Shown here: positions 444 to 54,855 of the stretch, one piece after another
Position numbering within the stretch: the first letter of the stretch is position 1
How the letters are laid out: every line of letters begins with the position of its first letter
NCBI GenBank assembly: GCA_009192285.1
Contig: WBVU01000008.1
Location: forward strand, 1,622,370-1,686,369
Source: Morchella semilibera
Taxonomy: Eukaryota; Ascomycota; Pezizomycetes; Pezizales; Morchellaceae
DNA: 64,000 nucleotides
Reading direction: 5' to 3'
Position numbers and translations under genes: made by a program
Notes under the pieces: model-generated
Seen by the model: the letters and a program-made list of their open reading frames with translations, nothing else
What the model was told of the DNA's origin: nothing
Databases searched by the model: none

Positions 444-945
444 TAACAATTAGCGTTTCACGATTTCCACCCCGGAAATCCGCCAAATATGCCCGACGTC
501 AGGCCACCCCGACGTCAGGCACGGTCGGGCATCCCTACCACGTATTATGACACGGAACAGAATCATGTCGGGACCTATGTCAGGCTCAACCACTACAGCA
601 GGCTCCCATTAGTGAAAATAGGTCTCTAGTATAGCGCCCCCACTATCGCTTCCACCTCCACCTCCACCTTCACCCCCACCCCCACCCCCACCCCATGGAC
701 ACACCCATAATGACACCTAGGATACGCTTGAAATGACGCCACTAACACGTCCAAATCTACGCCTATGACACGCCCAGATAGTCAAAACCAGGTCCCCTAA
801 CAATTAGTGTTTCACGATTTCCGCCCTGGAAATCCAATAAATATTCCCGACGTCAGGCCACCCCGACGTCAGGCGTGGTCGGGCACAGTCGGGCATTTCA
901 AGCACCTCCTGTGACACGCGATAGAATTATGTCGGGCCCAACCAG
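441..945. repeat. Two-copy ~360-bp module with GACGTC boxes
   Basis: AACAATTAG(C/T)GTTTCACGATTTCC followed by CCCGACGTCAGGCCACCCCG appears at 441-590 and again at 799-945, each time followed by a weakly conserved ATGTCGGG. A related AACAATTAGTGTTTTGCC lies at 1,591. Between the copies is a CCACCTCCACC/CCCCCAC low-complexity tract (about 650-700). No ORF is supported. The GACGTC hexamers are palindromic, but there is no evidence for binding. Confidence 0.6.
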
Positions 946-34131: not shown

Positions 34132-36361
34132 CTAGAACCTTTTCCTACGCTTGCTTGAAGCTGACTCCATGGAACTACCTTTACGCTTTCCATTGTGCCC
34201 CCTAATTACCCTACTACCCCGACCCTCAGGTGGGGTACCGGGCTCCTTTTCAGTTGATATAGCCAGCGATGCAGGTAGTGGTTCCCTCTGAAGCTGTTCA
34301 ATATATATGGTATCGAGCATTGCTAAAAGATCAGACTTAGCATTATATTTTCAGGCGATAAAATCAATAGGGGACCCTACATGTTGAGGACTCCGGCTCT
34401 GTTATTAGGTCGGCCAGGATTGATTCCCTATTTGCATGCTGTTCGAGAGGTCCAGCACCATGGGTGGTTGGTAGCTCTGGCTCGTGACTCTGCTGGCTAT
34501 CTAACTCTAAGTTGTTACCAGAAGGATGCAGCTGAATATCATTCTCAATATTTTCGCAGGCACTCTCGTTACTCTGTCTAGAACTATTACCATGACACAA
34601 GTAGCTACAGAGACGAAATGATTTAAAGCATGGGCAGCGAATAGTTTGGCACTTGGAACAGCAGGTACAAAAGTTGGATGTCTATAAATAAGTTATCAGC
34701 AGCTCAAGCAGAGTATAAGTTATTAAGAGTATTACCCGTGACTGTCCTGACTGCTGGAGTGGGTTGGCCACCATATTGGAATATTGTGATGCCATTCTAA
34801 GAGTTATTTTTCTTGTATTGGCGCTGGGAGTTAATTCAAAATCGAGTGAACCTCTAACCAACTCCATATCACTTGCTTGACATTTTCGTTTGGTAATTCC
34901 ATATTGACTTTGTAATATGAAGCCGGTAGCTGTACCTCCACTCAACACCTTACAGAGAAGCCGTTTTGGGTCGGTTTTGCCACGGTCTTGATTAGGGATT
35001 TTGAGAGTAACAAGATCACCAGTATTGAATACTACAGGTGGACCATTAACAATGTCCCTACGCACCATTGACTCTCTGCCTCTTGCAGTAGATTTCCGGA
35101 CCTCTGTATGAATAATCGATCTTTCTTGAGTATGACTATGAGTAGTATTTGTTGGTGTCATGGATATAAGTACTGGATCGATTGGTATTAAAGGTGAAGA
35201 AGGTGGTGAGGAAGTTATTTCTAAAATGTCACGTTCTTGTTGGGAAATAAGACTATTCTCCTCAATAGGATCCTCGACAGTAGATGGGGTTTCGTCAGCA
35301 ATTGCTACCTGATGCCTTTCAGTAAATGGTACCCTGTTTCCATAAATCCTTTGTCCAAATACAATATCATAAGGTGCTTTTCCTGTGACTGAGTGGCGTT
35401 GGGTATTCATTGCTAGAATGACCTCCGGTAGTGCTTTGCTCCACATCTTTGACCTATGATCCTGCATCGATGATATCTTTTCTTTCAATACCCCATTGCC
35501 TTGTTCAATCAATCCTTGACTCTGTGGATGGCGGGCTCGTCCATTAATTACCTATAATCATAATAAGTTGATTGTCAATGTATCCTAACTAGAATATCTG
35601 TACCTGAATACCATGTGCCTGTAACAATAAAGTAAGAGCTCCTTTGAACTCAGTCCCATTATCACATTGAAGGATCCGAGGGGGTCCAAGGTGCGTAATC
35701 CAGCTCAAAACCACCTCCACAACACTGCTGCTTGCTTTGTTGATGATTGCATATGCTTGCGAATATTTACTAAAGTGAACCTTCATATGACAGATCCATT
35801 TATAATTCCCATCTGGTTTACTGCTCATATCAATCAAGTGGATCTGAATTCAGTTAGTACATGGTCTCCAACTAAGGTGTCTGGTATTACCTGTACTCTT
35901 TCGAAGAGCTTCTCAACAACAATGGGTCTCAATTCTGCCGTTTTTGTCTGTGGACGTTGGCGCATACAAGTATAACAGTGGTCTAATATCATTTCAACCT
36001 CACGGCGTGATATTCCATAGTAATCCCTATCAAGCTCCTCAAATGTCTTCCTCCTACCGGCATGACTCAGGTTTAGATGAGCTCGAACCACCAAATCAAA
36101 CACTTCCAAATCTGTAACCACTTGACGGAAGGGTTTGTTGGGTTGTCTGTATAACAGGTTGCCTTCAGTCATTTGGTATCGATGCTTAATATCATGTCTC
36201 AGACGCCTAGCATTTGGTCCCGTTGCTTCTTGATTCCCAGCAATTATTTGGGTAATAAGTTGAACTTTAGCAACTGTTGGACGGGAGCGGTTGTTGTTGG
36301 AACCATCAGTTAGATATTGATTCCAAGATAGTCTAGTATTCTGTGAAAATGGGGATACCAT
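34132..36361 (-). CDS. Integrase-core protein, Ginger/KRBA2-like, spliced
   Basis: DDE integrase of the kind found in Ginger-type cut-and-paste transposons and their KRBA2/SCAND3-like domesticated relatives. I read five exons (36,361-35,891; 35,843-35,604; 35,551-34,736; 34,681-34,381; 34,322-34,132). The introns are 47, 52, 54 and 58 bp, the first with a perfect TACTAAC branch site, giving about 672 residues. Visible parts in order: an H2C2 zinc-binding domain (H95, H100, C129, C132) with HAGRRKT; the catalytic triad D162, D218 (QCDNGTEF) and E253 (GLIEQGNG); and a C-terminal cysteine cluster (514-539, CSKCQTIRCPCF then CSYLCH) typical of this group. A basic tail (KRRKRF) suggests nuclear import. 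It looks whole. No protease or reverse transcriptase lies beside it, arguing against an LTR element. I saw no clear terminal inverted repeats. The last intron is the least certain: without it the gene ends at 34,364. Confidence 0.8.
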
Positions 36362-39218
36362 ATTGAAGATTTGTTTAGTGCTGATCGATCGGGTAAAACT
36401 GTAGTCCAGAGAATCACTATCCGGAAGGAAAGGAGATATTTATAGAATATAGAGGAGTGTGTGAAAGTTAAATCCTCTCGAGTCATCAAGTGTTATAATA
36501 CCCTTATTCCGCAACTCACAAGACTTATAATCATCCGCTCGATCCTCCTTACCTTTCTTTTCAGGACTAACATAAAGAATTATCATATATGATCTCACAT
36601 CGGAGCTCATAAAGTATATTGAAGTCCTACGAGTCATGGGACTAGTCTGCTATCATCTCACAGTATGTTAATCACGGGTTATAGAATGTGTCATACCAAA
36701 GAAAACCCACAGCTGGTGGGGTACGTGCTCAGGATTCAAACTCATAATACTTGAAAGCCGGAGGTTTTGTAGATGGGAAACCTATTCAAAAACACTGCTC
36801 ACACGAGAACCATCCATCGCATCTGGGTAACGTTCATCGAGTAGGGAGACTCAATCAGGAACGTTTATCAACAGGTATCGTTCCTGACCGGGCCGGAGCA
36901 TACCTCTTGTGGTGTTATCGCTGAAGCATCGGTATGGAGCATAGGGAGAGAGTTAATCAGATCTGGTTTAGGTGGGAAAAAAGCGTTGATCAGATTCTGA
37001 TTAAGGAGTATTGGGGTTGTGAAAGGGTTAGAAGAAGTGGCGGAGGCGTGGGATGCTGGCTCACCAAGACTTAGACCTATATCTAATACAGCCCCTGACC
37101 TCCTGCGTACCGCACAGTGCAGCGGCAGTTAATAGGCGATGGAGCGCGGCAATAGCTATTTTGGTAGAACGCCACCAACATTTAGTGTTTGTACTCCCAG
37201 GGCGTTCCATCACTTACTACCTACTACTGTACACGGTAATGTGTATGAGTAGAAGGGTCAGTGTTGGCTCACCAATAAATGGAGAGTAGAGTCTGACAAT
37301 CGGCGGAATAGCAACTCCTACCAATAGATGTCACTACAGGGAAGAAACCACACGGGGCATGGGAGTCACTTGCGTCTCACCTCAATGTTATGTAGTTGAG
37401 TGGTTGATAACTTATCGGGATAATTGAGTAGTATGGTAGTGGCGTCAGGTTATGAATATTAAATGCGTTAGCTTTGGAGTGGGGGCATGCAGTTTGGAGA
37501 ATAGGTGAGTGGATACCCTTAAACAGCAGTCAGAGGTTCACCATAGCGGCAATCTTTATAATTCTCCTTGTGATTATCTTGAGACCGGTGTCCAGCTCCT
37601 GTAATGTTCGGGTTTCGCGTTTGCGCCTCTTCTAAAGGCCCCCATGAATTAAAGACTGGTTCAGCCGACAAAGAAGGTTAGTGCCTGATGGCCCCAGCAT
37701 TGGGCTTTGCACGGAGACTGTTAGTATAAGAAGGAAATACCGAAAGTATGGCTCACCCAGGTTAGCACTGGCAGCGGGTACTTTACCTCGAAAGCACCCG
37801 TCAGATATAGTGGGCCAGTACGTGCCTCGTTCCTGCATTCCGCTTGGATTCTGGAGCAATCGCTTGCTGATTTCTGTCTCGTGGGGTAATCTCCTGTCAA
37901 GCGCCCGTGTATCAAGATGCGTAGGTAAGCGCAGGCGGTATAACATGCTTTCTATTCATAACTGTGGATCAGAGTATTCTTGGGTCGCAACCTATTTCGT
38001 TTAGCGCCAAGACATGTATTAAAACTGGGAGTCACTGCCCTGGCTAGCATCGGTCGCCTGCATATGCAAGTGTCCTCGCAGATCATTAGGACCTTAAGAT
38101 CACCACTGTCCAAGCATGTTTGTAGCTCGCTTATCCTGTGTCACATGTTAGAGCAAAGGGCGGACTGGTGCGACGGTGCAATCGAAATATCTTGCATGAA
38201 GCAGCTCAAGGGACAGCGCTTGAAACTGACCAACCTCTCAAAGCTCTGGAATTACTCTGGGCACGTCGTGGGCGGGCAGCGGTTCCAGGGCCAGGGTAAT
38301 TGCAACCTGTGGATATTCTCAAGTCACTATGAGATACAGTACGTCTCAGGTGGGTTGTCACTGCTACACGATTAGATGTTTGATTAACAGCGTTGCCAGC
38401 ACTGCGACCGAGATAAAACCTGATTATTCACTCCACAAATAGGGTATTACTGTTGGTGCACTTGCGTAACGCATAACCATTTGTTTAATATCTGCAATTG
38501 AGCAATTGAGAGGCGCCGCAAAGCAGTTGTGCCATCGCCTATTCAGTAACAGATAGCTTCCAGACTGGCTCACAACCTATGTAGAGCTGGATTGAGCGGG
38601 TCAGCATGCGGCCCGGTATACGGCTCAGTTTTCCGGATCATTGTTTCCCATCAGATTTCATTATCTTCTGGTGGGATTACACAAGTAGGTTTATATCGGG
38701 GCAGGGGCGCATAGGGTTGCTACATTAAATCAAATTAGTAACTCACCGTGGATACATTCCAACGGCCCATTCAATCACAGTGTCTTCAATAAGCGATCAA
38801 CATCTCAGCTTAGCCGCACCATATCACTTCGCATTTGATCATAAGATGAATCTTAGGACAGGTCTCGGGCGGAGGCACGGCACCAATTTATAGACGGTCA
38901 CGGCATCATTGTGTGAGGTTAAAGATTTATTCAGAGAGAAGTATAAGGTTTGTATTGGAAATCACTAATGCGATAAAGAGAATTCTTTGCCATAGCTCTA
39001 GAGTAGCGGAAATCACAAAATGTGAGAGAATATATTTTTTCATATAAAAGCTGTTTGCTCAAGATGATGAGGAATGACGGGGAGAGAGGGTGGAGAGGGT
39101 GGTATAAATAGCTATCGCGAAGGAGGCCATGGTGTCGCTTAACCGTCCCGGATGCTTACCGTGTTTTGTGCCAGATATCCATATATGCTTGAGGGTGACG
39201 TTGCATGCATTATGCCAG
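36362..39218. other. No gene recognised
   Basis: Several ORFs of 60-131 codons occur (the longest at 37,980-38,375), but none shows a domain, splice signals or codon pattern I trust. GTAGTTGAGTGG at about 37,391 resembles a Pol III box A, with no matching box B. Confidence 0.4.
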
Positions 39219-39871
39219 GTTAGTTAGGGTTAGTGATCAAGCTGTATTTGTTTTAGGGTACAAATAGCAAACCACAGCTAGGGAAAGCCTAGGCACATGA
39301 CTACAACTATAACCGCAGGTACAAAAATGAAACCCCATCCACCCCTAGGAGAGCTCAACCCAAAATTCGAAGGCACAACCCTCAAAGCCGAGTCTTACAA
39401 CACCCAAGAAAGAAGACAAGAACAACACCAAGCACGGGTCCTATGCATGCCATCACCCTTATAACAGCAATCCATGCGAGGGAGGAAGAGCCCCTACCCG
39501 AACCAACAGCTCAACCCAAGTCAGAGGCACAACCCCCTAAGTCGAGTCTAACAAATCAGTCCAGCAAAGACCAAAACCCAAAACAGCCCAATCCATACCG
39601 AGGCACAACCCCGAGACCAGGACTAACAACAGGTACATCCTCCAAAGAAAAAGAAGCAGAGCAAACTTCAACTTCTAGCGGCCCCAGACCTCCACTCCAC
39701 CCCACCATTCCCGTCTCAAAGCAGGAACGGTTGATGGGAAAATGATTAAGAGACATAGGAAAATTAACAAATGAGTGACAGATATAAAACAGTGGAAACA
39801 CAAATAAATCAATAACGAAAGAGTATTCCCGTATCCTCCGAACCCAAGTAAACATATCATATCTATCAATT

Positions 39872-40897
39872 TCAACCACCAAACTCATTCATCAATCGTC
39901 GTACCTCGTCCTCTTGGAATGCTGTTGCAAGGCGTTTGTTCCAATCGGTTAATATCCTGTATGCTCTATCATGCGCCTTGATATTAAGGAGGTAATCAAT
40001 GACTGTATACTTGGTATCCGGTGGGTGGAAAAGCCTATCAAACTCCATCATCTCCTTCTCCTCATCATTCAACACCAAGTCCAGATCCATACATCGGACA
40101 TGACCCCTATCAAACCTCTCACCGCACAGACATTTCCTGCCCCAACAGTAGATTCCTCGCCTCCAATCCCAGAGCATTCTCTGCATGGTCGGATCAGATA
40201 TACCTGTAACAGTAGAAAAAGGGTGGAGATGAGAAGGCAATATCAGCCATCAATCCATTGAAGGGGGAGGAGGAGCGAAAACCTAAACATGAATATTCGA
40301 CATAGAAATCCATGCGGTCCACCAAGACATTAATGTCTAGGTGGACCATCAACTCAAACAAGGCAAAAGGGGGAAGGAGGGTTGGAGGGGGAGGTGGAGG
40401 GGAGGGGGGGGGGGAAAGCCTAAACATAGATATTCGACATAGAAATCCATGCGGTCCACCAAGACATTAATGTCTAGGTGGACCATCAACTCAAACAAGG
40501 CAAAGGGGGAGGAGGGTTGGAGGGGGAGGTGGAGGGGAGGTGGGGGGGAATCATAGATGGGTGGGGGGTGGGGGGTGGGGGGTGTGGGGTTAGACCAACC
40601 AAGAACGGCAACCGCATCCAGTCCAGTCAACCTGGCCTCCGGCTCAACAATGGCACTCAAGGTTATAGTCTTCATATCCCTCTCACATACGGTCACAGTC
40701 TTCCTCCAAGCCAAAAAGGAAATCATCTTGTCCTTCAATTCCTTGCCATCAAATAGGTCTCGCTGCTCCAGGAAGGAGGAATACATCCGGTCCTCCAGTA
40801 GGTGACCAGCAAGGAGGCCATCGCATTCCCTGCATCGTCGTTTTTCCCCCCCCCCTACCCGGCGTGTCGACGACCTCGAAAGGGTGGACCTTCCATG
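39872..40897 (-). pseudogene. LINE polyprotein, C-terminal part (copy A)
   Basis: The coding region ends at 39,872. The C-terminus contains a CCHC-type knuckle, CLCGERFDRGHVRC, preceded by WDWRRGIYCW and followed by a charged ~70-residue tail. This knuckle is the zinc motif found downstream of the reverse transcriptase in many LINEs. Upstream are two ~137-bp direct repeats and a proline-rich low-complexity segment, then EARLTGLDAVAVLGW and HLLEDRMYSSFLEQRDL. The reverse transcriptase itself is missing because of the 5' truncation. Confidence 0.65.
40282..40556. repeat. 137-bp direct repeat with 30-bp palindrome inside LINE
   Basis: Two tandem units begin at CCTAAACAT (40,282 and 40,419). Each holds a 30-bp near-perfect palindrome, GTCCACCAAGACATT then AATGTCTAGGTGGAC (40,317-40,346 and 40,454-40,483), followed by a G-rich run on plus (CT-rich on the LINE sense strand). 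The same pair occurs in copy B (about 44,445-44,720) and copy B' (about 51,170-51,435). It therefore belongs to the element and is not a local accident. Confidence 0.75.
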
Positions 40898-41057
40898 TTA
40901 GGGTTAGTTAGGGTTAGTTAGGGGTTAGTTAGGGGTTAGTTAGGGTTAGTTAGGGTTAGTTAGGGTTAGTTAGGGTTAGTTAGGGTTAGTTAGGGGTTAG
41001 TTAGGGTTAGTTAGGGTTAGTTAGGGTTAGTTAGGGTTAGTTAGGGTTAGTTAGGGT
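40898..41057 (+). repeat. Telomere-like array, unit TTAGTTAGGG
   Basis: About sixteen copies of the 10-bp unit TTAGGGTTAG (equivalently TTAGTTAGGG), with a few 11-bp variants carrying GGGG. The G-rich strand runs 5'-3' toward the right, the polarity expected of a right-hand chromosome end. The array starts exactly at the truncated 5' end of LINE copy A and stops at the ambiguous base 41,058. It is either a real telomere joined to another contig or an interstitial telomeric tract. Confidence 0.85.
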
Positions 41058-41058: not shown

Positions 41059-41152
41059 AAGCCAACCAGAGGCAGGATTTGGACGTCAATATGCAAGATT
41101 TGGTAGAGAAGACCCCTGCTGCAGCGCAACGAATTTTCTCAATTAAAGCGGT
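41059..41152. mobile_element. MITE family 4, truncated copy
   Basis: It starts mid-element (AAGCCAACCAGAGGCAGG) directly after the ambiguous base and ends with the right inverted repeat ACCCCTGCTGCAGCGCAACG...AAGCGGT. The complete version is in the other palindrome arm at 54,719-54,855. Confidence 0.75.
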
Positions 41153-42957
41153 ACCCACAACCAAGGTGATCGCCTGATCGCCCATGCAGGTACCGATCGC
41201 AACCACTGCAGGTCCGAACGGGTCTAAGCGGGCCGCAACCGCAACCCTGCAGATTCGATCGGAACTAGCCGACCCGCAACCGCAACCACTCCGCAACCGA
41301 CTCCGCAACCATACAATCCCAACTGCACGCACCTCCTGGATATCAGCTCACACTACCCTCCAGCATGTCGCTATTGAGACACCGCTGCATGTTGCTGGTG
41401 GGACACAGCTACATATCGCTTCTGGAACACCACTGCATGTCGCTTCATGTCGCTGCTGTGATAATCCTTCATATCGTTGCTAGGACACCACATGACTGTA
41501 TCTCGCCTCTGAGACGCTATTGTATGCGGTTTGTAAGCAAGCACTGACGGTAGTCCCGGGCACGCTCCGCCTCCGGAGCGCGCGAAAGCGACCACCACCC
41601 AAGCGACACCACCCAAGCGACACCGCCCAAGCGACCGCATGCGACCACCCACCACCACACACAATCAAAACCCTTAACTAAGAGGTCTCTCAAGCGGTCA
41701 CCAAAGCGACTCCACCCCTGACTCTATATTCCGACACCCCAGGCGAACGTTTAGATACAGAGTCCACACTCACACCCAAAACCTCAGATCGCCATGGACA
41801 CGCCAAAAAATACTGGAATTAAGCGAGGTACCACACTACCACTACTGCTGTCGCTTCGCCTACCGTCGCACCACCACTACCACGGTCAACCAACACTACC
41901 ATTACGAAATTGAAGCGGGGCAGAGGCCATCACTAAATATCACCTATGCCTGTAATGATTGCTATAGCTATGAATGCTGGGCGCATGGTAACTAACCCTA
42001 ACTATACTATCCTGGCGTCAGAGATTGATTCTGCGGACTGAGAATTATATGGCTTTTTCTGGTCTGGTAGGTACCCACTACCGGGTACGATTAAGCGAGG
42101 CATTACACCATCACCATCACCATCACTATCATCACTACCACCACCACTACCCACAAAAATGAAGCACACCACCGCCACCACCATCATTAAATATCACCTG
42201 CGCCTGGTAATGACTGCGAATAATAGCGGCGCCTAAGATTAACTCTGGGGACTAGGAATAACAGTTAGCGCCTGAGAATGACTGCTATAGCATGTTGGCG
42301 AATGGGGTTGATAGCAGTCACATAAGATTGATACTGGCGCCTGGGATTAACACTGGTGGCATGGAAATGAAAACTAATGCCGGGAATAGCTGCAGGGTCA
42401 CAGGATAGCTGGCGCATGGAGTTAGTATCTGCCGCCTGAGATGACTATGGGGGCATGGATATGAAAACGTGCCTGGTAGTCCTAGGTGTTATCATCACCC
42501 AAGTGACATCACGCAAGTGACCACGCGCGATACCCGTTGCACACAAGCGACATCTATACTACCAAGAGGTTTCCCAAGCGACTAGGCCGGTTAGGGCGCA
42601 CTGCTTACTAAAGCGACTCCACCTAGCTCTATTTTTCCGACACCCACCCATGCTCACGTTTATACACCAGTCCACATTCACGTCCAAACTGGCACTCGAG
42701 ATTGACTATGGGGGCATGGATATGAAGACTGGTGCTTGATTGTAATCCTGGGCACGACCACCACCTAAGCGACCCATACAAACAGGTCTCCCAAGTGACC
42801 TGACCAGTTAGGACCCTTCACCTCCGCCCCCACCTCCACTTCCATCTCTACCTTTGCCTCAACTTTCACCTCGACTTCGAGTATCTCCTCATATCTATCT
42901 CCGCCTCCACCTCCATCTCAAGTATCTCCCTAGCTCTATATTCCGACCCCTTTGCTA
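41153..42957. repeat. Subtelomeric minisatellite mosaic (left arm)
   Basis: Successive short-unit tracts: CGCAACCGCAACC (41,220-41,320), ~34-bp units with GCATGTCGCT (41,360-41,490), CCAAGCGACACCACC (41,585-41,640), CACCATCACCATCAC (42,100-42,180), GGCGCCTGGGATTAAC units (42,215-42,480), and CACCTCCACTTCC-type tracts (42,820-42,930). No gene is supported. The mirror copy is 52,919-54,718. Confidence 0.75.
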
Positions 42958-43367
42958 ATTAGTTAGGGTTAGTGATCAAGTTATATTGATTTATGGGTAC
43001 AATAGAAAACCACAGCTAGGGAAAGCCTAGGCACATGACTACAACTATAACCGCAGGTACAAAAATGAAACCCCACAAGCCCCCCAAGTGAGCTCAACCC
43101 AAATTCGCAAGCACAACCCCCAAAGCCGAGTCTTACAACACCCAAGAAGAAAACAGGAAAACACCAAGCACGGGTCCTATGCATGCCATCACCCTAATAA
43201 CAGTCATCCATGCGAGGGAGGAAGAGCCCCTGCTCGAACCAATAGCTCAATCCAAGTCAGAGGCTCAACCCCCTAAGTCGAATCTAATAAATCAATCCAG
43301 CAAAGACCAAAACCCAACAGCCCAATCTATACCGAGGCACAACCCGAGACTAGGACTAACAACAGGT
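42958..43367 (-). mobile_element. Telomere-tailed LINE, copy C (3' UTR only)
   Basis: It opens on plus with TTAGTTAGGGTTAGTGATCA and continues with a 3' UTR clearly related to, but diverged from, copies A and B (GTTATATTGATTTATGGG in place of GCTGTATTTGTTTTAGGG). It is 5' truncated at 43,367 and followed directly by the telomere-like tail of copy B, giving a head-to-tail array. Confidence 0.8.
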
Positions 43368-46080
43368 AGTTAGGGTTAGTTAGGGTTAGTTAGGGTTAGT
43401 GATCAAGCTGTATTTGTTTTAGGGTACAAATAGCAAACCACAGCTAGGGAAGCCTAGGCACATGACTACAACTATAACCGCAGGTACAAAAATGAAACCC
43501 CATCCACCCCTAGGAGAGCTCAACCCAAAATTCGAAGGCACAACCCTCAAAGCCGAGTCTTACAACACCCAAGAAAGAAGACAAGAACAACACCAAGCAC
43601 GGGTCCTATGCATGCCATCACCCTTATAACAGCAATCCATGCGAGGAGGAAGAGCCCCTACCCGAACCAACAGCTCAACCCAAGTCAGAGGCACAACCCC
43701 CTAAGTCGAGTCTAACAATCAGTCCAGCAAAGACCAAAACCCAAAACAGCCCAATCCATACCGAGGCACAACCCCGAGACCAGGACTAACAACAGGTACA
43801 TCCTCCAAAGAAAAAGAAGCAGAGCAAACTCCAACTTCTAGCGGCCCCAGACCTCCACTCCACCCCACCATTCCCGTCTCAAAGCAGGAACGGTTGATGG
43901 GAAAATGATTAAGAGACATAGGAAAATTAACAAAATGAGTGACAGATATAAAACAGTGGAAACACAAATAAATCAATAACGAAAGAGTATTCCCGTATCC
44001 TCCGAACCCAAGTAAACATATCGTATCTATCAATTTCAACCACCAAACTCATTCATCAATCGTCGTACCTCGTCCTCTTGGAATGCTGTTGCAAGGCGTT
44101 TGTTCCAATCGGTTAATATCCTGTATGCTCTATCAGCGCCTTGATATTAAGGAGGTAATCAATGACTGTATACTTGGTATCCGGTGGGTGGAAAAGCCTA
44201 TCAAACTCCATCATCTCCTTCTCCTCATCATTCAACACCAAGTCCAGATCCATACATCGGACATGACCCCTATCAAACCTCTCACCGCACAGACATTTCC
44301 TGCCCCAACAGTAGATTCCTCGCCTCCAATCCAGAGCATTCTCTGCATGGTCGGATCAGATATACCTGTAACAGTAGAAAAAGGGTGGAGATGAGAAGGC
44401 AATATCAGCCATCAATCCATTGAAGGGGGAGGAGGAGCGAAAACCTAAACATGAATATTCGACATAGAAATCCATGCGGTCCACCAAGACATTAATGTCT
44501 AGGTGGACCATCAACTCAAACAAGGCAAAAGGGGGAAGGAGGGTTGGAGGGGGAGGTGGAGGGGAGGGGGGGGGGGAAAGCCTAAACATAGATATTCGAC
44601 ATAGAAATCCATGCGGTCCACCAAGACATTAATGTCTAGGTGGACCATCAACTCAAACAAGGCAAAGGGGGAGGAGGGTTGGAGGGGGAGGTGGAGGGGA
44701 GGTGGGGGGGAATCATAGATGGGTGGGGGGTGGGGGGTGGTGGGGTGGGGGTTAGACCAACCAAGAACGGCAACCGCATCCAGTCCAGTCAACCTGGCCT
44801 CCGGCTCAACAATGGCACTCAAGGTTATAGTCTTCATATCCCTCTCACATACGGTCACAGTCTTCCTCCAAGCCAAAAAGGAAATCATCTTGTCCTTCAA
44901 TTCCTTGCCATCAAATAGGTCTCGCTGCTCCAGGAAGGAGGAATACATCCGGTCCTCCAGTAGGTGACCAGCAAGGGAGGCCATCGCATTCCCTGCATCG
45001 TCGTTTTTTCCCCCCCCCTACCCGGCGTGTCGACGACCTCGAAAGGGTGGACCTTCCATGACCCCTAGCAAGTCCAGAGTAGGAAGAGGAGGAGGAGGAG
45101 GAGGAGGAGGAGGAACAAATACCATCCAGGAGGATCAGTCTCATCGGGTTGTCACTGTACATGGTTTCCAGGTGGTGTTGAAATCCACACCTCAAGTGCT
45201 CCATCCGTCTCCGCATATCCAGCACCCCACAGAGATTTCCAAACAAGCAAGGTCTATTGGAGCAACCACCAGCAATCCATATCATGCACTCCTTCCAGGC
45301 AACCTCCAACGGTACAAGGAACCTGCGGGCTCCAGCACGGCCACCACCACCACCACCACCGGATCGGACCCAAGGATCAACAAGAGCCAGACCATACTCC
45401 ATGACCGGTCTTATGAATATCTTGAACATGTTCAGCCTGACCCTAGGAGTCCAAGTATCGGAGCTGAACTGGAGGAAACCCTTGACACCCATCGCCTTCG
45501 CCACCATCCGGTCACGATGCGCCTCAAAGTCAATACCATCCCTATCGACCGGAAATCCCAGATAGCGATAGGAGTCAACAACCGGAAGAGGTAGATCATA
45601 TAGGGTCAGAGGAGCATGTCCAATCCTACCCATCGACTCGCTGGCAACAATCCCGCACTTGGCCACCTTGAATCGCATATCATGGTCTTCGGCCCACCGC
45701 TCACAAATGGACAGGAGAGCAGAGGCATGAGACCAATCACGGCACATGAGAACCCCATCATCAGCATAGAACAAGGCCGACGGTAAACAAGAACCAGAAT
45801 CAAGAAGCCGAGGTGGTGAAGGGTAGTCCAAATCGGATGAGTCGAGATCAAGTTCAGTATCCGTATCAATCTCAAAGTCAGAGCTATATCCAATATATTC
45901 AGGGATCTCAACTGAATGAGATTAGAATCAGATCAAATCACAGTAATCGTTAGCAAAGGAACATGAAACACGGATATCAAGTTATGGTAATAACTAATGG
46001 GCAGCAAATCGGAGGAACTCACACTCAGAATCAATCTCGCCAGTCAGAAACCAACGATAAGATTATCCTCCGATATCCCA
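43368..46080 (-). mobile_element. Telomere-tailed LINE, copy B
   Basis: The tail is about three TTAGGGTTAG units (43,368-43,400), followed by the 3' UTR, the CCHC C-terminus (stop at 44,036), the 137-bp repeats and the reverse transcriptase second half. Beyond 46,080 the element continues as a much more diverged sequence (46,081-47,150). The sense strand is minus, with the 5' end facing right. Confidence 0.85.
44036..45831 (-). pseudogene. LINE reverse transcriptase and C-terminus (copy B)
   Basis: FYADDGVLMC near 45,770 is the catalytic YxDD box of the palm. It is followed by the thumb-like RYLGFPVDRDG and FEAHRDRMVAKA region, a glycine-rich spacer (GSGGGGGGG type), a serine run and the CRECDGL...HLLEDRM segment. 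The C-terminal CCHC knuckle follows after the low-complexity repeats. The frame changes once in the GATGGCCTCCC run (about 44,984), where copy A has one C fewer. This may be a sequencing difference or a real inactivating change. Confidence 0.75.
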
Positions 46081-47150
46081 GAAGAGCCACAGTTTAGTAA
46101 TTCCTTCCTTCACCCCAGCCGGGAGTAGTCAATCCAATTATAGCACTTGAGAGCTGACTTTTGGCCTGGTCACATGGCGCGGTCCTAAAGTGGACTGACC
46201 TCCCAGCCGCAGACAACTAGTGCCCACCTGTCCTGGAAATACATACATAACCTATCGCATCGCTTAAAGCTTCCACTCTCTACCGACCAGCCCAGTAACG
46301 TCCACATACTGGATTCAGACCCTTGCACTCTGCTTCATACCGGAGTGGGGTTATCGGCATCGGAGAGGAAATCCGGATGTGGAACACAGAGGAGTCAGTC
46401 TCATTGTCCGTAATCCACTGAGTCAATGGACTTGGCAAGGTGGATGTTCCCGGCACACCGATCATCATGGACAGCCCCGAGTACTTCATGCTAAACCGGC
46501 CCATCAGCTCCGGAACTTGCCCGATTCAAGAGCACGCTAGGAAAGAGTAAGTACCCTAATCTGCTAATGAAGATGGCAATCGGTCGGATATCAGCAAGGC
46601 AGAGGCCTGCCCTTGAGGGTACCCCTGCCACTTGCTAACCTATCCCCCGACCGGCGTGCTACTCTCCCTGATAGTAGTGGGCACCGCCATTCTGAAATCC
46701 GACCAACCAATTAGACATTGAACCCTTGAACATCAAAGATCGCGAACCGACCGTACCAAGCAATACAGTAGGGCTCAGCACCATGCTTCCATCGCACTTC
46801 TTTCTCCAAAACTCACCCACAACGCTCATAACACTCTTCGGAGACGCATATCGTAAGCCACGCCTATCAAATCGAACTAGACCCATACCACTCCGGATCA
46901 CGTAATAGCTGCAAGTCGATAGCCCGCATCGGATGAGGGTAGCACGCCACTGTGTCAAGACGAACGTGCAGCCACTCCTAGAAAACAAGGCCTGAGACCC
47001 AGCTTCAAGGACACTTGTTAGGGGTCATCCCAGATCCTTTTCCGGGACGGATCATACTCCTAGACTAGATTCCGACGGAACAATCACCCCAAGGATGTGC
47101 CGATGGGCCTAGAATTGGTAAACGGCCCCGGCGTGTCCATTTCGTCCTCC
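46081..47150 (-). mobile_element. Diverged continuation of LINE copy B
   Basis: The reverse complement still follows copy B' in order: CTAGGCCCATCG, GTATGATCC, AGGAGTGGCT, GTGGGTGAGTTTTGGAGAAA, GACTCCTCTG and GGGTCTGAATCCAGTATG. Substitutions and insertions of one to a few bases now occur every few positions. The switch from near identity to this state happens within a few tens of bases at ~46,080. Such evenly spread indels resemble uncorrected long-read sequence more than mutational decay. Confidence 0.6.
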
Positions 47151-48314
47151 ATAGGATCTTCTCCTTGTATGGACTCGGACCACCAGCTTAGGTGGTCACC
47201 TGCCATCCCCGCTTGCGAGGCGCTGCTGCAATACACCCACACACCCGGACAACAAGTCTGAAACGTTTTCGTATCCCAACCGAACAGTAGGTGCAAAGTT
47301 CTACTCTCTTCTACTCACCTCCTTGACCTCCTGCCATAATAGTATTACGCCTTCCGCCCATCAACCGGCACGCATATGGCGCCTGCTGAGTTTTATGGTC
47401 ACCCCATTTGAAAGTGTGCTTAGGCCGACCTCTCAAACCTACACCTGTTAGACCTCCCAGTACTAGGCGAGGGGAATATACCCAATAGCCTAACGCCCCT
47501 CGGTCAAAACATGGTGTAACCTTAAGAAGTTCAATTACCATCCTTTACAACGTCAGGCTGAGAGAGGTGAGCGGCTGCTGTCGCCCAAGAATATGGGCTT
47601 GGCAGCTGGGCCCAATCAATCCTTACGATATAGCACCTCACTCAACGCGTCCGTTGCAATCAACAAATATCGGATTAACTGGGTTATCTAAACGCGGGGT
47701 CCAGTGAAGAGCGTTTATTATCAAATGTAGGGTGTTAAACTTCTTCTATACTATCACGCCGAACGGGTGTTACGTTCGTTAGGTAGCACTATCCAAAGTA
47801 CGCCGTAGTAGGTTCTCCCTAACACGCTGATTTACAAGGACCCTAGCATTGAGTGTTAGTGTATGGAACGCTCTAGCAGGGCTTCAGAAGTTCTTTCTCG
47901 GGGTTTTAGTCCTATAAACGGTAGATTTAGTTGGGGCGGCAGTTAGCGCCGCGGATCGCTCACTTAGGAATGAGACGGTGCACTCGGTGTATAAGAATCG
48001 ACGTATCCTAGGTAGTAAGGTTAAGATATCTCTCAGCCTGACGATAACATATAGAGATACAACTATGCGACTCTGTCAGCATACGTGGGATAGAGTCTCT
48101 CTGTAGGCGATGCGTAATGCCTGAATTCCCCTCGAATCATCCCCCTGATACTCATATATAGCGATGAACTGAGGCCCTCTACCCTGATCATGAGCGTTAA
48201 TTTCTAACCTCTACAACGCACCCACGTGCCGTCGTAAGAGAACACATCACCGCAAAACTATACCACATCAAGAGACTACTCGCTAACTCGTAACTCGCAT
48301 CGGTCGAACTATAG
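47151..48314. other. Palindrome centre, no gene recognised
   Basis: The symmetry axis would lie near 47,940. The sequence shows no repeat or ORF I can support. Weak similarity between 47,180-47,300 (reversed) and 48,830-48,960 suggests that the mirror symmetry continues in degraded form. Confidence 0.4.
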
Positions 48315-48420
48315 TCCCTTAACTAACGCCGAAACAAACCCTACTCTAACCGCTAACTAACCCAACTACACCCTTAACTAACCCCTAGCTAACTAACCCC
48401 GTAACGTTAAAACCCCTAGC
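48315..48420 (-). repeat. Degenerate telomere-like tract
   Basis: CTTAACTAACGCC, CTAACCGCTAACTAACCC, CCCTTAACTAACCCCTAG and CTAACTAACCCCG form a noisy CCCTAACTAA series on the plus strand. It lies upstream of LINE copy B', as expected if that copy sits inside telomeric repeats. Confidence 0.6.
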
Positions 48421-48979
48421 TCGTGTGTCCTACACGATCTTTCCGAAAATTGAATGAGAATACTGTCACCGGACGCCTACTTGCACGTAAACGTAGGGGT
48501 GGTTTCTCTGGTGTATTGTGAGGTGCATCAGCGAATGTTTCAGGACCCCCGCCCCACCGCTTATTTCCCTTGCCGAGTGAGAGGATAGATACTTGGACGT
48601 CAGCCTGCTTTCTATCCCACCATGACTAGCTCGCATTCGCTGATGAAGAGGAACTGGCGCATAAGACGAAGTACAATTGGAGGGACAGGCCAACAACCAG
48701 CAAAGCGTTGGCGGTGGAGTGCGTAACAATGCGATGAGCAGGTATAGATGACATGCGAAGTAGTGACGATATATCTGAAGGTATTCGTGGACGGGATGTT
48801 AACTGCGCTGATAACGGCCCCATGCCTTCCGTGAAAAGAGCTGCGCTACGTGTTTTCGTAATCTGAGGCTGCTCCCGTTTGGCGTGTCTTTGTCTTGTCC
48901 AGAGCTCGCGGGGAGGGTTTAACGCCACGCCACTGGAACAGCCGTACACTTACTGTTCACGCAATCCACAAGGATACTT
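48421..48979. other. No gene recognised, possibly LINE 5' region
   Basis: Lies between the degenerate telomere tract and the first recognisable reverse transcriptase motif. It may be LINE 5' sequence of low quality; no endonuclease motif could be found. Confidence 0.35.
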
Positions 48980-51900
48980 CGAAGCCTTACAACCGCGTCC
49001 AATACTAGGCCCATCGCAATCCTTGTGATGTTCCGTCGAATCTTCGAGGGTATGATCCTTCCCGCGTTTGAAGATCCTGGATACCCCTACAATGTCCTTG
49101 ATGGTGGTCAGGCTGGTTTCAGGAGTGGCTACTCGACCTTGACACATGCTGCTACCCTCAACCATGGGGCTATCGACTGGTACGATTCCGATTGCTGTGT
49201 TCCTCGATCTTGAAGCGGCTTACGATATGGTCTCCGAGGTGAAGCTTGTGGGTGAGTTGGAGAAACAGGGCATGCCTGAGATACTGATTGCCTTGGTGGT
49301 TCGGTTGATGTTCAGTTCAATGTCCTATCGATTGGTTGTCAATGGTCATACCTCGGAGTCGCTGAATAGGAATGTGGGGGTACCCTCAAGGCTCGCCTCT
49401 ATCACCTGCCATCTTTAATAAGTTTGTGGATTCTCTTCTACGTGCTCTGAATCGGTTGGGTCCTACCCTGTTACCTGATACTGCTTCCGATGATGATGGT
49501 GATGCCGACTCCCTTGCCAAAATCCATTGATATGGATACGGACATGGACGACTCCTCTGGTTCTGCCACTCCGATTCTCCCCGATCCGATACCCACTCCG
49601 GTAATGAAGCAAAGTGCAGGGTCTGAATCAGGTATGTTGGAACGTTACTGCTTCACTCGAGTTGCTCCTATTTTTGATTGGGTTTGCTGACATTCTATTG
49701 ATCTTCCCTATTCAGTTAGTAGCGTTGGTTTGAGACGCTCAATGAGATTGATTACTACTTCCGCTGGTGAAGGAAGAGGATACTACTGTGGGCTTTCTGA
49801 TTCGGAGGATAATCTTATCGTTGGTTCTGACTGCGAGATTGATTCTGAGTGTGAGTTCCTCCGATTTGCTGCCCCATTAGTTATTACCATAACTTGATAT
49901 CCGTGTTTCATGTTCCTTTGCTAACGATTACTGTGATTTGATCTGATTCTAATCTCATTCAGTTGAGATCCCTGAATATATTGGATATAGCTCTGACTTT
50001 GAGATTGATACGGATACTGAACTTGATCTCGACTCATCCGATTTGGACTACCCTTCACCACCTCGGCTTCTTGATTCTGGTTCTTGTTTACCGTCGGCCT
50101 TGTTCTATGCTGATGATGGGGGTTCTCATGGTGCCGTGATTGGTCTCATGCCTCTGCTCTCCTGTCCATTTGTGAGCGGTGGGCCGAAGACCATGATATG
50201 CGATTCAAGGTGGCCAAGTGCGGGATTGTTGCCAGCGAGTCGATGGGGTAGGATTGGACATGCTCCTCTGACCCTATATGATCTACCTCTTCCGGTTGTT
50301 GACTCCTATCGCTATCTGGGATTTCCGGTCGATAGGGATGGTATTGACTTTGAGGCGCATCGTGACCGGATGGTGGCGAAGGCGATGGGTGTCAAGGGTT
50401 TCCTCCAGTTCAGCTCCGATACTTGGACTCCTAGGGTCAGGCTGAACATGTTCAAGATATTCATAAGACCGGTCATGGAGTATGGTCTGGCTCTTGTTGA
50501 TCCTTGGGTCCGATCCGGTGGTGGTGGTGGTGGTGGCCGTGCTGGAGCCCGCAGGTTCCTTGTACCGTTGGAGGTTGCCTGGAAGGAGTGCATGATATGG
50601 ATTGCTGGTGGTTGCTCCAATAGACCTTGCTTGTTTGGAAATCTCTGTGGGGTGCTGGATATGCGGAGACGGATGGAGCACTTGAGGTGTGGATTTCAAC
50701 ACCACCTGGAAACCATGTACAGTGACAACCCGATGAGACTGATCCTGGATGGTATTTGTTCCTCCTCCTCCTCCTCCTCCTCCTCCTCTTCCTACTCTGG
50801 ACTTGCTAGGGGTCATGGAAGGTCCACCCTTTCGAGGTCGTCGACACGCCGGGTAGGGGGGGGGGAAAAACGACGATGCAGGGAATGCGATGGCCTCCTT
50901 GCTGGTCACCTACTGGAGGACCGGATGTATTCCTCCTTCCTGGAGCAGCGAGACCTATTTGATGGCAAGGAATTGAAGGACAAGATTGATTTCCTTTTTG
51001 GCTTGGAGAAGACTGTGACCGTATGTGAGAGGGATAATGAAGACTATAACCTTGAGTGCCATTGTTGAGCCGGAGGCCAGGTTGACTGGACTGGATGCGG
51101 TTGCCGTTCTTGGTTGGTCTAACCCCACACCCCCCACCCCCCACCCCCACCCATCTATGATTCCCCCCCACCTCCCCTCCACCTCCCCCTCCAACCCTCC
51201 TCCCCCTTTGCCTTGTTTGAGTGATGGTCCACCTGACATTAATGTCTTGGTGGACCCGCATGGATTTCTATGTCGAATATCTATGTTTAGGCTTTCCCCC
51301 CCCCCCTCCCCTCCACCTCCCCCTCCAACCTCCTTCCCCCTTTTGCCTTGTTTGAGTTGATGGTCCACCTAGACATTAATGTCTTGGTGGACCGCATGGA
51401 TTTCTATGTCGAATATTCATGTTTAGGTTTTCGCTCCTCCTCCCCCTTCAATGGATTGATGGCTGATATTGCCTTCTCATCTCCACCCTTTTTCTACTGT
51501 TACAGGGTATATCTGATCCGACCATGCAGAGAATGCTCTGGGATTGGAGGCGAGGAATCTACTGTTGGGGCAGGAAATGTCTGTGCGGTGAGAGGTTTGA
51601 TAGGGGTCATGTCCGATGTATGGATCTGGACTTGGTGTTGAATGATGAGGAGAAGGAGATGATGGAGTTTGATAGGCTTTTCCACCCACCGGATACCAAG
51701 TATACAGTCATTGATTACCTCCTTAATATCAAGGCGCATGATAGAGCATACAGGATATTAACCGATTGGAACAAACGCCTTGCAACAGCATTCCAAGAGG
51801 ACGAGGTACGACGATTGATGAATGAGTTTGGTGGTTGAAATTGATAGATACGATATGTTTACTTGGGTTCGGAGGATACGGGAATACTCTTTCGTTATTG

Positions 51901-52509
51901 ATTTATTTGTGTTTCCACTGTTTTATATCTGTCACTCATTTGTTAATTTTCCTATGTCTCTTAATCATTTTCCCATCAACCGTTCCTGCTTTGAGACGGG
52001 AATGGTGGGGTGGAGTGGAGGTCTGGGGCCGCTAGAAGTTGGAGTTTGCTCTGCTTCTTTTTCTTTGGAGGATGTACCTGTTGTTAGTCCTGGTCTCGGG
52101 GTTGTGCCTCGGTATGGATTGGGCTGTTTTGGGTTTTGGTCTTTGCTGGACTGATTTGTTAGACTCGACTTAGGGGGTTGTGCCTCTGACTTGGGTTGAG
52201 CTGTTGGTTCGGGTAGGGGCTCTTCCTCCCTCGCATGGATTGCTGTTATAAGGGTGATGGCATGCATAGGACCCGTGCTTGGTGTTGTTCTTGTCTTCTT
52301 TCTTGGGTGTTGTAAGACTCGGCTTTGAGGGTTGTGCCTTCGAATTTTGGGTTGAGCTCTCCTAGGGGTGGATGGGGTTTCATTTTTGTACCTGCGTTAT
52401 AGTTGTAGTCATGTGCCTAGGCTTTCCCTAGCTGTGGGTTTGCTATTTGTACCCTAAAACAAATACAGCTTGATCACTAACCCTAACTAACCCTAACTAA
52501 CCCTAACTA
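48980..52509 (+). mobile_element. Telomere-tailed LINE, copy B' (longest)
   Basis: Mirror of copy B, and the longest copy in the window. It holds the reverse transcriptase from the first recognisable palm motifs (49,025), two intron-like segments, YADD, the CCHC C-terminus (stop ending 51,838) and the 3' UTR, and ends in the tail CTAACCCTAACTAACCC (52,475-52,509). No endonuclease domain was identified, and the 5' end is not defined. A 10-bp CCCTAACTAA tail in place of poly(A) is unusual among LINEs and is shared by every copy here. Confidence 0.85.
49025..51838 (+). pseudogene. LINE reverse transcriptase ORF (copy B')
   Basis: Palm motifs in order: GGQAGFRSGYST (about 49,110), AVFLDLEAAYDMV (about 49,196), GVPQGSPLSP (about 49,378, readable across a one-base insertion), FYADDG (about 50,105). 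Then come RYLGFPVDRDG and the C-terminal CLCGERFDRGHVRC knuckle (about 51,575). Between VPQG and YADD lies an S/D/E-rich insert of about 150 residues. The insert carries two GT-AG segments, 49,632-49,715 (84 bp, GCTGAC branch) and 49,851-49,962 (112 bp, CTAATC branch); removing both keeps one open frame. Small indels near 49,382, 49,521 and 50,120 break the frame. In the last case copy B reads correctly through the same place, so sequencing error is plausible. Confidence 0.7.
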
Positions 52510-52918
52510 CCTGTTGTTAGTCCTAGTCTCGGGTTGTGCCTCGGTATAGATTGGGCTGTTGGGTTTTGGTCTTTGCTGGATTGATTTATTAGATTCGACT
52601 TAGGGGGTTGAGCCTCTGACTTGGATTGAGCTATTGGTTCGAGCAGGGGCTCTTCCTCCCTCGCATGGATGACTGTTATTAGGGTGATGGCATGCATAGG
52701 ACCCGTGCTTGGTGTTTTCCTGTTTTCTTCTTGGGTGTTGTAAGACTCGGCTTTGGGGGTTGTGCTTGCGAATTTGGGTTGAGCTCACTTGGGGGGCTTG
52801 TGGGGTTTCATTTTTGTACCTGCGGTTATAGTTGTAGTCATGTGCCTAGGCTTTCCCTAGCTGTGGTTTCTATTGTACCCATAAATCAATATAACTTGAT
52901 CACTAACCCTAACTAATT
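52510..52918 (+). mobile_element. Telomere-tailed LINE, copy C' (3' UTR only)
   Basis: Mirror of copy C. It is 5' truncated immediately after the CCCTAACTAA tail of copy B' and ends in its own tail, CACTAACCCTAACTAATTAG. This is the second view of the head-to-tail junction. Confidence 0.8.
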
Positions 52919-54718
52919 AGCAAAGGGGTCGGAATATAGAGCTAGGGAGATACTTGAGATGGAGGTGGAGGCGGAGATAGATATGAGGAGATACTCGAAG
53001 TCGAGGTGAAAGTTGAGGCAAAGGTAGAGATGGAAGTGGAGGTGGGGGCGGAGGTGAAGGGTCCTAACTGGTCAGGTCACTTGGGAGACCTGTTTGTATG
53101 GGTCGCTTAGGTGGTGGTCGTGCCCAGGATTACAATCAAGCACCAGTCTTCATATCCATGCCCCCATAGTCAATCTCGAGTGCCAGTTTGGACGTGAATG
53201 TGGACTGTGTATAAACGTGAGCATGGGTGGGTGTCGGAAAATAGAGCTAGGTGGAGTCGCTTTAGTAAGCAGTGCGCCCTAACCGGCCTAGTCGCTTGGG
53301 AAACCTCTTGGTAGTATAGATGTCGCTTGTGTGCAACGGGTATCGCGCGTGGTCACTTGCGTGATGTCACTTGGGTGATGATAACACCTAGGACTACCAG
53401 GCACGTTTTCATATCCATGCCCCCATAGTCAATCTCAGGCGGCAGATACTAACTCCATGCGCCAGCTATCCTGTGACCCTGCAGCTATTCCCGGCATTAG
53501 TTTTTCATTTCCATGCCACCAGTGTTAATCCCAGGCGCCAGTATCAATCTTATGTGACTGCTATCAACCCCATTCGCCAACATGCTATAGCAGTCATTCT
53601 CAGGCGCTAACTGTTATTCCTAGTCCCCAGAGTTAATCTTAGGCGCCGCTATTATTCGCAGTCATTACCAGGCGCAGGTGATATTTAATGATGGTGGTGG
53701 CGGTGGTGTGCTTCATTTTTGTGGTAGTGGTGGTGGTAGTGATGATAGTGATGGTGATGGTGATGGTGTAATGCCTCGCTTAATCGTACCCGGTAGTGGG
53801 TACCTACCAGACCAGAAAAGCCATATAATTCTCAGTCCGCAGAATCAATCTCTGACGCCAGGATAGTATAGTTAGGGTTAGTTACCATGCGCCAGCATTC
53901 ATAGCTATAGCAATCATTACAGGCATAGGTGATATTTAGTGATGGCCTCTGCCCCGCTTCAATTTCGTAATGGTAGTGTTGGTTGACCGTGGTAGTGGTG
54001 GTGCGACGGTAGGCGAAGCGACAGCAGTAGTGGTAGTGTGGTACCTCGCTTAATTCCAGTATTTTTGGCGTGTCCATGGCGATCTGAGGTTTTGGGTGTG
54101 AGTGTGGACTCTGTATCTAAACGTTCGCCTGGGGTGTCGGAATATAGAGTCAGGGGTGGAGTCGCTTTGGTGACCGCTTGAGAGACCTCTTAGTTAAGGG
54201 TTTTGATTGTGTGTGGTGGTGGGTGGTCGCATGCGGTCGCTTGGGCGGTGTCGCTTGGGTGGTGTCGCTTGGGTGGTGGTCGCTTTCGCGCGCTCCGGAG
54301 GCGGAGCGTGCCCGGGACTACCGTCAGTGCTTGCTTACAAACCGCATACAATAGCGTCTCAGAGGCGAGATACAGTCATGTGGTGTCCTAGCAACGATAT
54401 GAAGGATTATCACAGCAGCGACATGAAGCGACATGCAGTGGTGTTCCAGAAGCGATATGTAGCTGTGTCCCACCAGCAACATGCAGCGGTGTCTCAATAG
54501 CGACATGCTGGAGGGTAGTGTGAGCTGATATCCAGGGGTGACGTGCAGTTGGGATTGTATGGTTGCGGAGTCGGTTGCGGAGTGGTTGCGGTTGCGGGTC
54601 GGCTAGTTCCGATCGAATCTGCAGGGTTGCGGTTGCGGCCCGCTTAGACCCGTTCGGACCTGCAGTGGTTGCGATCGGTACCTGCATGGGCGATCAGGCG
54701 ATCACCTTGGTTGTGGGT
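52919..54718. repeat. Subtelomeric minisatellite mosaic (right arm)
   Basis: Mirror of 41,153-42,957 with the same tract order reversed: GGAGGTGG-type, GGCGCC units, GATGGTGATGGTG, GTCGCTTGGGTGGT, ~34-bp GCGACATG units and GGTTGCGG tracts. No gene is supported. A small difference is GGGGTGACGTGC (54,535), where the left arm reads GCACGCACCTCC. Confidence 0.75.
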
Positions 54719-54855
54719 ACCGCTTTAATTGAGAAAATTCGTTGCGCTGCAGCAGGGGTCTTCTCTACCAAATCTTGCATATTGACGTCCAAATCCTGCC
54801 TCTGGTTGGCTTATACCCCTGCTGCAGCGCAACGAATTTTCTCAATTAATGCGGT
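54719..54855. mobile_element. MITE family 4, complete copy
   Basis: This 137-bp element has 41-bp terminal inverted repeats (54,719-54,759 and 54,815-54,855) starting ACCGCTTTAATTGAGAAAAT, with a single mismatch between the arms. The centre, containing GACGTCCAAATCCTGCCTCT, is shared with the copies at 18,620 and 41,059. Non-coding, and the least decayed inverted-repeat element in the window. Confidence 0.8.

Follow-up and report, generated by a model that had tools for sequence, protein, structure and literature searches.

The window analysed here, a stretch of 64,000 nucleotides of Morchella semilibera DNA, lies on contig C22 (1622370-1686369) of the assembly that was searched, which comprises 56.76 Mb in 23 contigs. 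It contains pieces of a LINE family with two subfamilies, A and B, and a telomeric tail common to both. A telomere array, a scaffold join and a large palindrome lie among them. The features are as follows.

175-196, minus strand: tail, one mismatch
189-444, minus strand: subfamily B copy, 5'-truncated, 256 nt, with its telomeric tail at 175-188 and non-telomeric DNA on its 5' side
39220-39241, minus strand: tail, exact
39220-40897, minus strand: subfamily A copy, 5'-truncated, about 1.66 kb, with 3' tail; its 5' end adjoins a telomere array
40898-41057, plus strand: telomere array (TTAGTTAGGG)n capping the 39.2 kb copy, interpreted as a genuine chromosome end
41058-41058, no strand: single N, read as a scaffold join beyond the chromosome end
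41059-54812, no strand: palindrome with arms 41059-46001 and 49873-54812
42959-42980, minus strand: tail, exact
42959-43368, minus strand: 5'-truncated copy of about 396 nt plus tail; its 5' end meets the tail of the next copy
43366-43399, plus strand: three telomeric units joining two head-to-tail copies, as read from the sequence
43386-43407, minus strand: tail, exact
43400-46134, minus strand: well-resolved part of a long subfamily A copy, 96% to the L051 copy, with poor-quality sequence beyond
46134-48934, no strand: palindrome centre, 71-79% to a good copy where aligned, the quality of unpolished reads
48934-52476, plus strand: RT-bearing right-arm image of the long copy, 97% to L051; another alignment extends as far as about 48694
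49632-49715, plus strand: intron-like stretch 1, 84 nt, in the RT frame (GTATGT...TGCTGAC...CAG)
49851-49962, plus strand: intron-like stretch 2, separating motifs B and C of the RT; 111 nt in L051 and longer by one base here
51518-51835, plus strand: C-terminal exon with CCHC zinc knuckle, in the RT-bearing right-arm image
52469-52490, plus strand: tail, exact
52469-52916, plus strand: mirror of 42959-43407 (tails and truncated copy), in the palindrome arm
52895-52916, plus strand: tail, exact

On the sense strand, the element 3' end reads CTTGATCA-CTAACCCTAACTAA at all six ends in the window, one with a single mismatch, and six tails were reached in none of 100 shuffles. A sequence-only reading of the window had described six LINE pieces with the same tail. 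All six are present (five exact, one with 1 mismatch), but the two mirrored ones are not independent. The same reading had placed the repeat immediately after CTTGATCA, as CCCTAACTAA; this string had 0 matches even with 3 mismatches allowed, and four bases, CTAA, intervene. The order that it gave for 43366-43407 was borne out: a truncated copy, then three repeat units, then the neighbouring copy's 3' end. The telomere array at 40898-41057 and the N after it go unmentioned in that reading.

The palindrome spans 13.75 kb and begins directly after the N in the window. Its centre, at about 46.1-48.9 kb, could be aligned with a good copy as two pieces at 71-79% only, and the pieces at 52.5 and 52.9 kb are mirror images of those at 43.4 and 43.0 kb. 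Mirrored pieces were counted once because both are arms of one palindrome with a poor-quality centre, which is probably an assembly artefact. Six long internal telomere arrays were followed to their far side, and every one stops at an N (the window; C19:2201148; C19:4063202; and C1 near 1462305, 4005412 and 5770150); these are interpreted as chromosome ends that the scaffolder placed in series. Further internal arrays lie on C2, C11 and C23, with edges outside the sequence read, and a short three-unit tract at C1:1519381 has no N.

The host telomere repeat is (TTAGTTAGGG)n with a unit of 10 bp, as found by a genome-wide pattern search and inspection of contig ends. The assembly contains 251 exact 30-mers of this repeat, and the arrays at contig ends are properly oriented. 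Judged from the listings of a literature search, there is no apparent report of TTAGTTAGGG as the telomere of any organism. A profile search of the genome yielded a match to the TERT RNA-binding domain on C11 (E 4.2e-48). The Zn2Cys6 domain, typical of fungi, has 49 matches in the assembly, in keeping with a fungal host.

Position, orientation and junctions across the assembly

The genome-wide count rests on 40 exact sites of an 18-mer spanning the tail and the element end, searched for in the whole assembly. Another 25 sites with 1-2 mismatches lie outside this classified set, and a reversed control pattern gave 4 matches. Ends were defined as contig ends plus nine internal telomere arrays, and sites within 5 kb were considered near. 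By this definition 24 of the 40 tail sites lie near a contig end or internal array, as does about 0.5% of the genome, an enrichment that treats copies as independent, although those sharing one end or lying on paired haplotypes are not, and the left ends of C21 and C22 look like haplotypes. The 5' end is directed toward the near end at 22 of the 24 sites; the two exceptions (C22:1665332 and C22:1665759) both belong to the left arm of the palindrome, just past the N join. A further eight of the 40 sites face an end 5-60 kb away. When the arrays counted as ends were restricted to the six verified by an N, the 22 were unchanged and C23:200868 dropped from the eight.

The 22 end-facing copies are spread over 17 ends. 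A telomere array was seen at 11 of these, which carry 15 of the copies; for the other seven copies the contig end showed no array or was unread, and a repeat by itself may be enough to break a contig. There is no telomere array at C14 right, C15 left, C15 right, C16 left or C22 left, and the C21 left end is unread. The remaining 10 of the 40 sites comprise four in the palindrome, among them the two exceptions just named, one at C19:716874, where the copy begins at an assembly gap, and five misfits, all with the same tail. The misfit at C20:3980131 lies 781 kb inside, and four face away from the nearest end: C2:4100098 (36 kb), C4:2672931 (59 kb), C11:2004745 (9 kb) and C23:181269 (6.8 kb). Element homology read at the C2, C4 and C23:181269 misfits spans 16-34 nt only, and these may be other subfamilies or relics.

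As a control, 60 RT matches to the first exon of the family were placed on the assembly, eight of which are the family itself. Of the other 52, a lower bound for such loci, not one is found within 60 kb of an end, and all are at least 101 kb away, with the distance taken at the RT rather than at the 3' end. The sequence-only reading had suggested that the family inserts into, or primes on, telomeric repeats with its 5' end facing the terminus, and had proposed listing what flanks each copy in the assembly. That check, run in part on 3' ends and their flanks, supports such targeting through the near-end and end-facing counts above and through nine copies whose 5' ends are capped by telomere.

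The tail sequences come from 38 of the 40 sites (C13:1559364 and C21:1276 were left out), or 36 after removal of the two mirror copies. The telomeric tail after CTTGATCA is 11-16 nt long in 26 of the 36 and 19-37 nt in the other 10; none is below 11 nt. The 25 nt of 3' flank beyond are all different, with 36 flanks for 36 independent tails. On the 5' side, the nine capped copies run directly into a telomere array (the window copy at 39.2 kb, L034, the first copy of L036, L038, L047, L051, L052, L053 and L064), and the 5' ends of eight copies meet the tail of a copy nearer the chromosome end (the window copy at 43.0 kb, L035, two in L036, L045, two in L051 and L052). Five copies have non-telomeric DNA on their 5' side (window 196, L037, L053:308, L055 and L056), four of them near ends. 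Copies outside these classes are cut by a sequence edge, belong to the short B pieces or, at L035:918, show an indistinct border that does not fit the aligned length. The two tandem copies of L036 were counted separately; a mismatch occurs in the tail at C6:236.

The 5' truncation is variable and the 3' end constant, as expected of LINEs. The smallest remnants between telomeric repeats measure 16 nt (L053) and 8 nt, which is CTTGATCA alone (L064). The order of the L051 array is unique DNA, truncated A copy, truncated B copy, 4.16 kb A copy, telomere array and N. Over 2.7-3.3 kb, the copies on C16 and C17 match the window copy at 98.8-99.4%.

Reverse transcriptase gene and endonuclease

The RT frame of the L051 subfamily A copy encodes 448 aa and matches RVT_1 (E 1.1e-15). 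Its best relatives of solved structure are LINE-1 ORF2p and R2, by which the RT is classed as LINE-type. In this copy the RT frame is followed by an 84-nt stretch, a short exon, a 111-nt stretch, an exon with YADD and a last exon with the CCHC knuckle. Both stretches have GT...AG ends and branch-like motifs (TGCTGAC and GCTAAC), and the reading phase holds across them. A third intron-like stretch in A has a clear acceptor, a blurred donor and an inner repeat of about 137 bp. With the mirror excluded, the first stretch is kept in all three copies that span it and the second in all four. Exact exon-exon words for stretches 1 and 2 were absent from all sequence examined. These stretches are putative spliced introns. 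Folding of the RNA of the element 3' end gave no signal (z -0.12).

From the REL endonuclease set (CCHC, RHD/N, E, R/KPD), the motifs CCHC, RHD/N and R/KPD were sought and CCHC alone was confirmed; RHD/N and R/KPD were absent after it in one copy each of A and B, both from L051. A single copy with an N-terminal domain was found, a subfamily B copy at C23:195.6-200.9 kb with one frame of 943 aa. The 3' end of this copy and the nearest internal array, the edge of which is outside the sequence read, are 12.8 kb apart. In this copy (L069), AP-endonuclease-like motifs occur in order, in the same frame and upstream of the RT: N.RG, ETW, YYPP, GDIN and TDH. A pattern written post hoc, after the motifs had been seen, found no match among 200000 shuffles or among 106 other ORFs. 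The endonuclease of an ordinary LINE (L070) matches a relaxed form of this pattern, which is the only form tried on it. There was no Pfam, NCBIfam or PDB match to an AP-endonuclease domain in the N-terminal region, and genome searches with PF14529 and PF03372 matched many ordinary LINEs and none of the telomeric family. In pairwise comparison of this region with L070, 208 of 1000 shuffles scored as high or higher. The N-terminal domain is an unconfirmed candidate for an AP-endonuclease-like domain.

Proposed priming at chromosome ends and alternative explanations

These observations suggest that the family adds itself to chromosome ends, which can afterwards be capped by telomerase. The reading that we favour, with a probability of roughly 0.8, is of a telomere-directed LINE in which the tail of the element RNA pairs with the G-rich chromosome end and primes cDNA synthesis, the copy is truncated and telomerase caps it. 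The element RNA would end in CUUGAUCACUAACCCUAAC(UAAC), complementary to the G-strand overhang (TTAGTTAGGG)n. Its last 11-15 nt would be telomeric and the tail template-encoded, with the transcript running past CUUGAUCA into the tail. The RT would then lengthen the chromosome 3' end with the element RNA as template. Because the chromosome 3' end would be the primer, the element 3' end would lie centromere-ward and its 5' end toward the terminus, as observed. Synthesis would mostly halt early, which would account for 5' truncation, and telomerase would then add a fresh TTAGTTAGGG cap, available as a primer for another copy. Head-to-tail copies with one to three units between them would be expected because each new copy primes on a fresh cap. 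Short, eroded or broken ends would be favoured as targets over the middle of long arrays, and insertion of the element may have a healing role. Both the template-encoded tail and the preference for eroded ends are suggested because most copies reach non-telomeric DNA through only 11-16 nt of repeat. The 11-16 nt tails and the 8-16 nt remnants together form a direct, countable record of turn-taking between retroelement and telomerase at the chromosome end.

TRAS, SART, TART and Zepp carry an endonuclease of AP type. A possible alternative, which we hold to be the less probable course and which may be partly true alongside end priming, is that the element nicks intact telomere arrays with an endonuclease of its own in the style of TRAS and SART and that the leftover proximal units form the tail. 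The ordered AP-endonuclease-like motifs of the C23 copy, and the failure of shuffles and other ORFs to match the post hoc pattern, are in its favour. However, this domain has no match in Pfam, NCBIfam or PDB and a pairwise score to L070 that is not above shuffles, and random hits in arrays of 50-200 bp should leave remnants of widely varying length, whereas 26 of the 36 tails have just 11-16 nt. Priming at chromosome ends has better support than insertion into telomere arrays because the 3' sides mostly show just this short repeat and then other DNA.

Subtelomeres of other fungi recombine. Spread of copies among ends by subtelomeric recombination, rather than by retrotransposition, is nevertheless unlikely here: it would account for the near-identical copies on C16 and C17, but recombination would have copied the flanks along, and the 36 tails have 36 distinct 25-nt flanks and the 5' truncation points differ. 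MoTeR arrays are described as recombining in portions of PMC7367193.

It is very unlikely that an untargeted LINE with an RNA-encoded tail has survived mostly in gene-poor chromosome ends. The five of 40 sites that lie far inside or face away with the same tail would fit such an element. However, survival bias is unable to select orientation, and 22 of the 24 near sites are end-facing, with the other two palindromic; nine copies are telomere-capped, and the other RT loci (0 of 52) are missing near ends.

An assembly artefact as the source of the whole arrangement is extremely improbable: the palindrome at 41059-54812 is probably one, six joins at an N are certainly due to scaffolding and repeats are where contigs tend to break (among the 17 ends, 5 lack a telomere array and one more is unread), but many separate contig ends show this structure again, with a telomere array distal to the element.

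Comparison with known telomeric retroelements

The papers in this section are cited from portions of their text unless stated otherwise. The fungal telomere-directed LINEs of these papers, MoTeR, FoTeR and Cnl1, form one REL-endonuclease group (PMC12857005, PMC12810828). MoTeR1 and MoTeR2 of Magnaporthe/Pyricularia oryzae are non-LTR elements with the 5' end always nearest the terminus and 5'-truncated copies capped by new telomere; their arrays contain short interstitial telomere tracts, and internal relics keep 3' telomere repeats (PMC7367193). The Morchella element resembles them in its location at ends, outward 5' end, capped 5'-truncated copies, arrays with short telomere tracts and internal copies with tails. 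However, MoTeR1 has the C-terminal REL motif set (PMC12857005), whereas in the Morchella element the CCHC is followed by neither RHD/N nor R/KPD. The host repeat is TTAGGG for MoTeR and a 10 bp unit here, and introns are not mentioned for MoTeR in the portions of PMC7367193 consulted, in contrast to the intron-like stretches described above.

FoTeR of Fusarium oxysporum has REL, typically carries 3-7 TAACCC units (about 18-42 nt) past its 3' end and is absent from non-telomeric loci (PMC12857005). As in the Morchella element, its 5' end points to the terminus, its 3' end is followed by telomeric repeats and truncated copies are commoner than full ones (PMC12857005), but in Morchella 26 of the 36 tails measure 11-16 nt and some copies are internal. 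The word 'intron' is absent from the main text of the FoTeR paper (PMC12857005). Cnl1 of Cryptococcus neoformans occurs in subtelomeric arrays with telomeric repeats on the outer side, an arrangement like that in Morchella, and also lands in an ordinary gene (PMC12810828). It is grouped with MoTeR among R2-like elements (PMC12810828) and in a REL tree (PMC12857005), whereas the Morchella copies tested are without REL motifs. Judged from these characters, the lifestyle is that of MoTeR, FoTeR and Cnl1, and the absence of RHD/N and R/KPD in the copies tested would place the element outside their group.

Chromosome-end LINEs are also found in hosts that are not fungal, namely TRAS and SART (Bombyx), Zepp (Chlorella) and HeT-A and TART (Drosophila). 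TRAS, SART and Zepp sit among telomeric repeats (PMC10088271), and in Drosophila HeT-A and TART stand in for telomerase (PMC5537684). Replacement of this type, with loss of telomerase and of the simple repeat, is not what was found in Morchella, in which a TERT match is kept and 10-bp telomere arrays are present at ends. Some telomere-associated Penelope-like elements retain introns. Penelope-like elements (Athena, Coprina; cf. PMC3846280) are likewise chromosome-end retroelements, but the RT of the Morchella element is LINE-type, its best matches of solved structure being LINE-1 ORF2p and R2. Among the titles and abstract openings of a literature search, neither a telomeric APE-type LINE in fungi nor an intron-bearing LINE was recognised, and either may exist in print.

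What is known is the telomere-directed lifestyle of fungal LINEs; what appears to differ here is the lack of REL motifs in the copies tested and the intron-like stretches in the RT gene. A tentative proposal, to which we give less than even credence, is that this telomere-directed LINE lies outside the REL-bearing fungal group and has an RT gene split by spliceosomal introns in its catalytic core. Unspliced nuclear RNA, ending in CUAACCCUAAC, would serve as template and spliced mRNA would encode the protein, so that RT and template would be separate molecules, as in telomerase, and the element would be a break-healing primer with its own telomere seed. An unspliced template is suggested because each copy that spans the introns retains them. 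Real introns would raise a testable question, namely how a LINE protein locates an RNA other than its own mRNA, and if the family is outside the REL group, the lifestyle that it shares with MoTeR, FoTeR and Cnl1 would be convergent.

Telomere repeat, scaffold joins and the palindrome

The telomere repeat of the whole assembly (G000) was TTAGTTAGGG, 10 bp in length; a literature search with three rotations of the repeat apparently returned, in the text that it reached, no published report of it as a telomere. Internal telomere arrays on contigs C1, C19 and C22 are read as chromosome ends that the scaffolds connect at N (n=6 seen). Match positions were near-equal within the contig pairs C9/C10, C12/C13 and C21/C22, and these pairs look like haplotypes. 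Positions 41059–54812 of the window comprised a near-perfect palindrome with a centre of poor quality, probably a fold-back read from a chromosome end that was taken into the assembly. Degraded CCCTAACTAA-like repeats were noticed by eye within the palindrome, at approximately 48300–48400.

Repeats and flanks of the LINE family

In subfamily A, a near-perfect inverted repeat of 32 bp (GGTCCACC...GGTGGACC) lay within a direct repeat of ~137 bp in the third of the intron-like regions.

Positions of the 32 bp inverted repeat in the window
40316–40347
40453–40484
44478–44509
44615–44646
51362–51393

A loosely recurring sequence resembling ATTATA..GG(C/T)TTTCTGGTG(A/G)GGTG was noticed by eye adjoining LINE ends in short stretches outside the window, and is perhaps the end of a different mobile element; a regular expression for it gave no matches.

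Occurrences noted by eye
L037, L053 and L055: 5′ sides of LINE copies
L060: 3′ flank

One isolated telomeric tract of 33 nt lay without any element at C1:1519381 (1501–1533 of stretch L019) and is perhaps a LINE copy reduced to its tail. A tRNA-Thr gene was located ~40 bp downstream.

Other protein-domain matches

The telomerase RNA-binding domain was matched twice, on C11 by an open sequence and at G000:C5:306657-306866 by one interrupted by two TGA codons and one TAA. An integrase zinc-binding domain match at 35837–36439 of the window (E 6.3e-06) probably belongs to an LTR retrotransposon.
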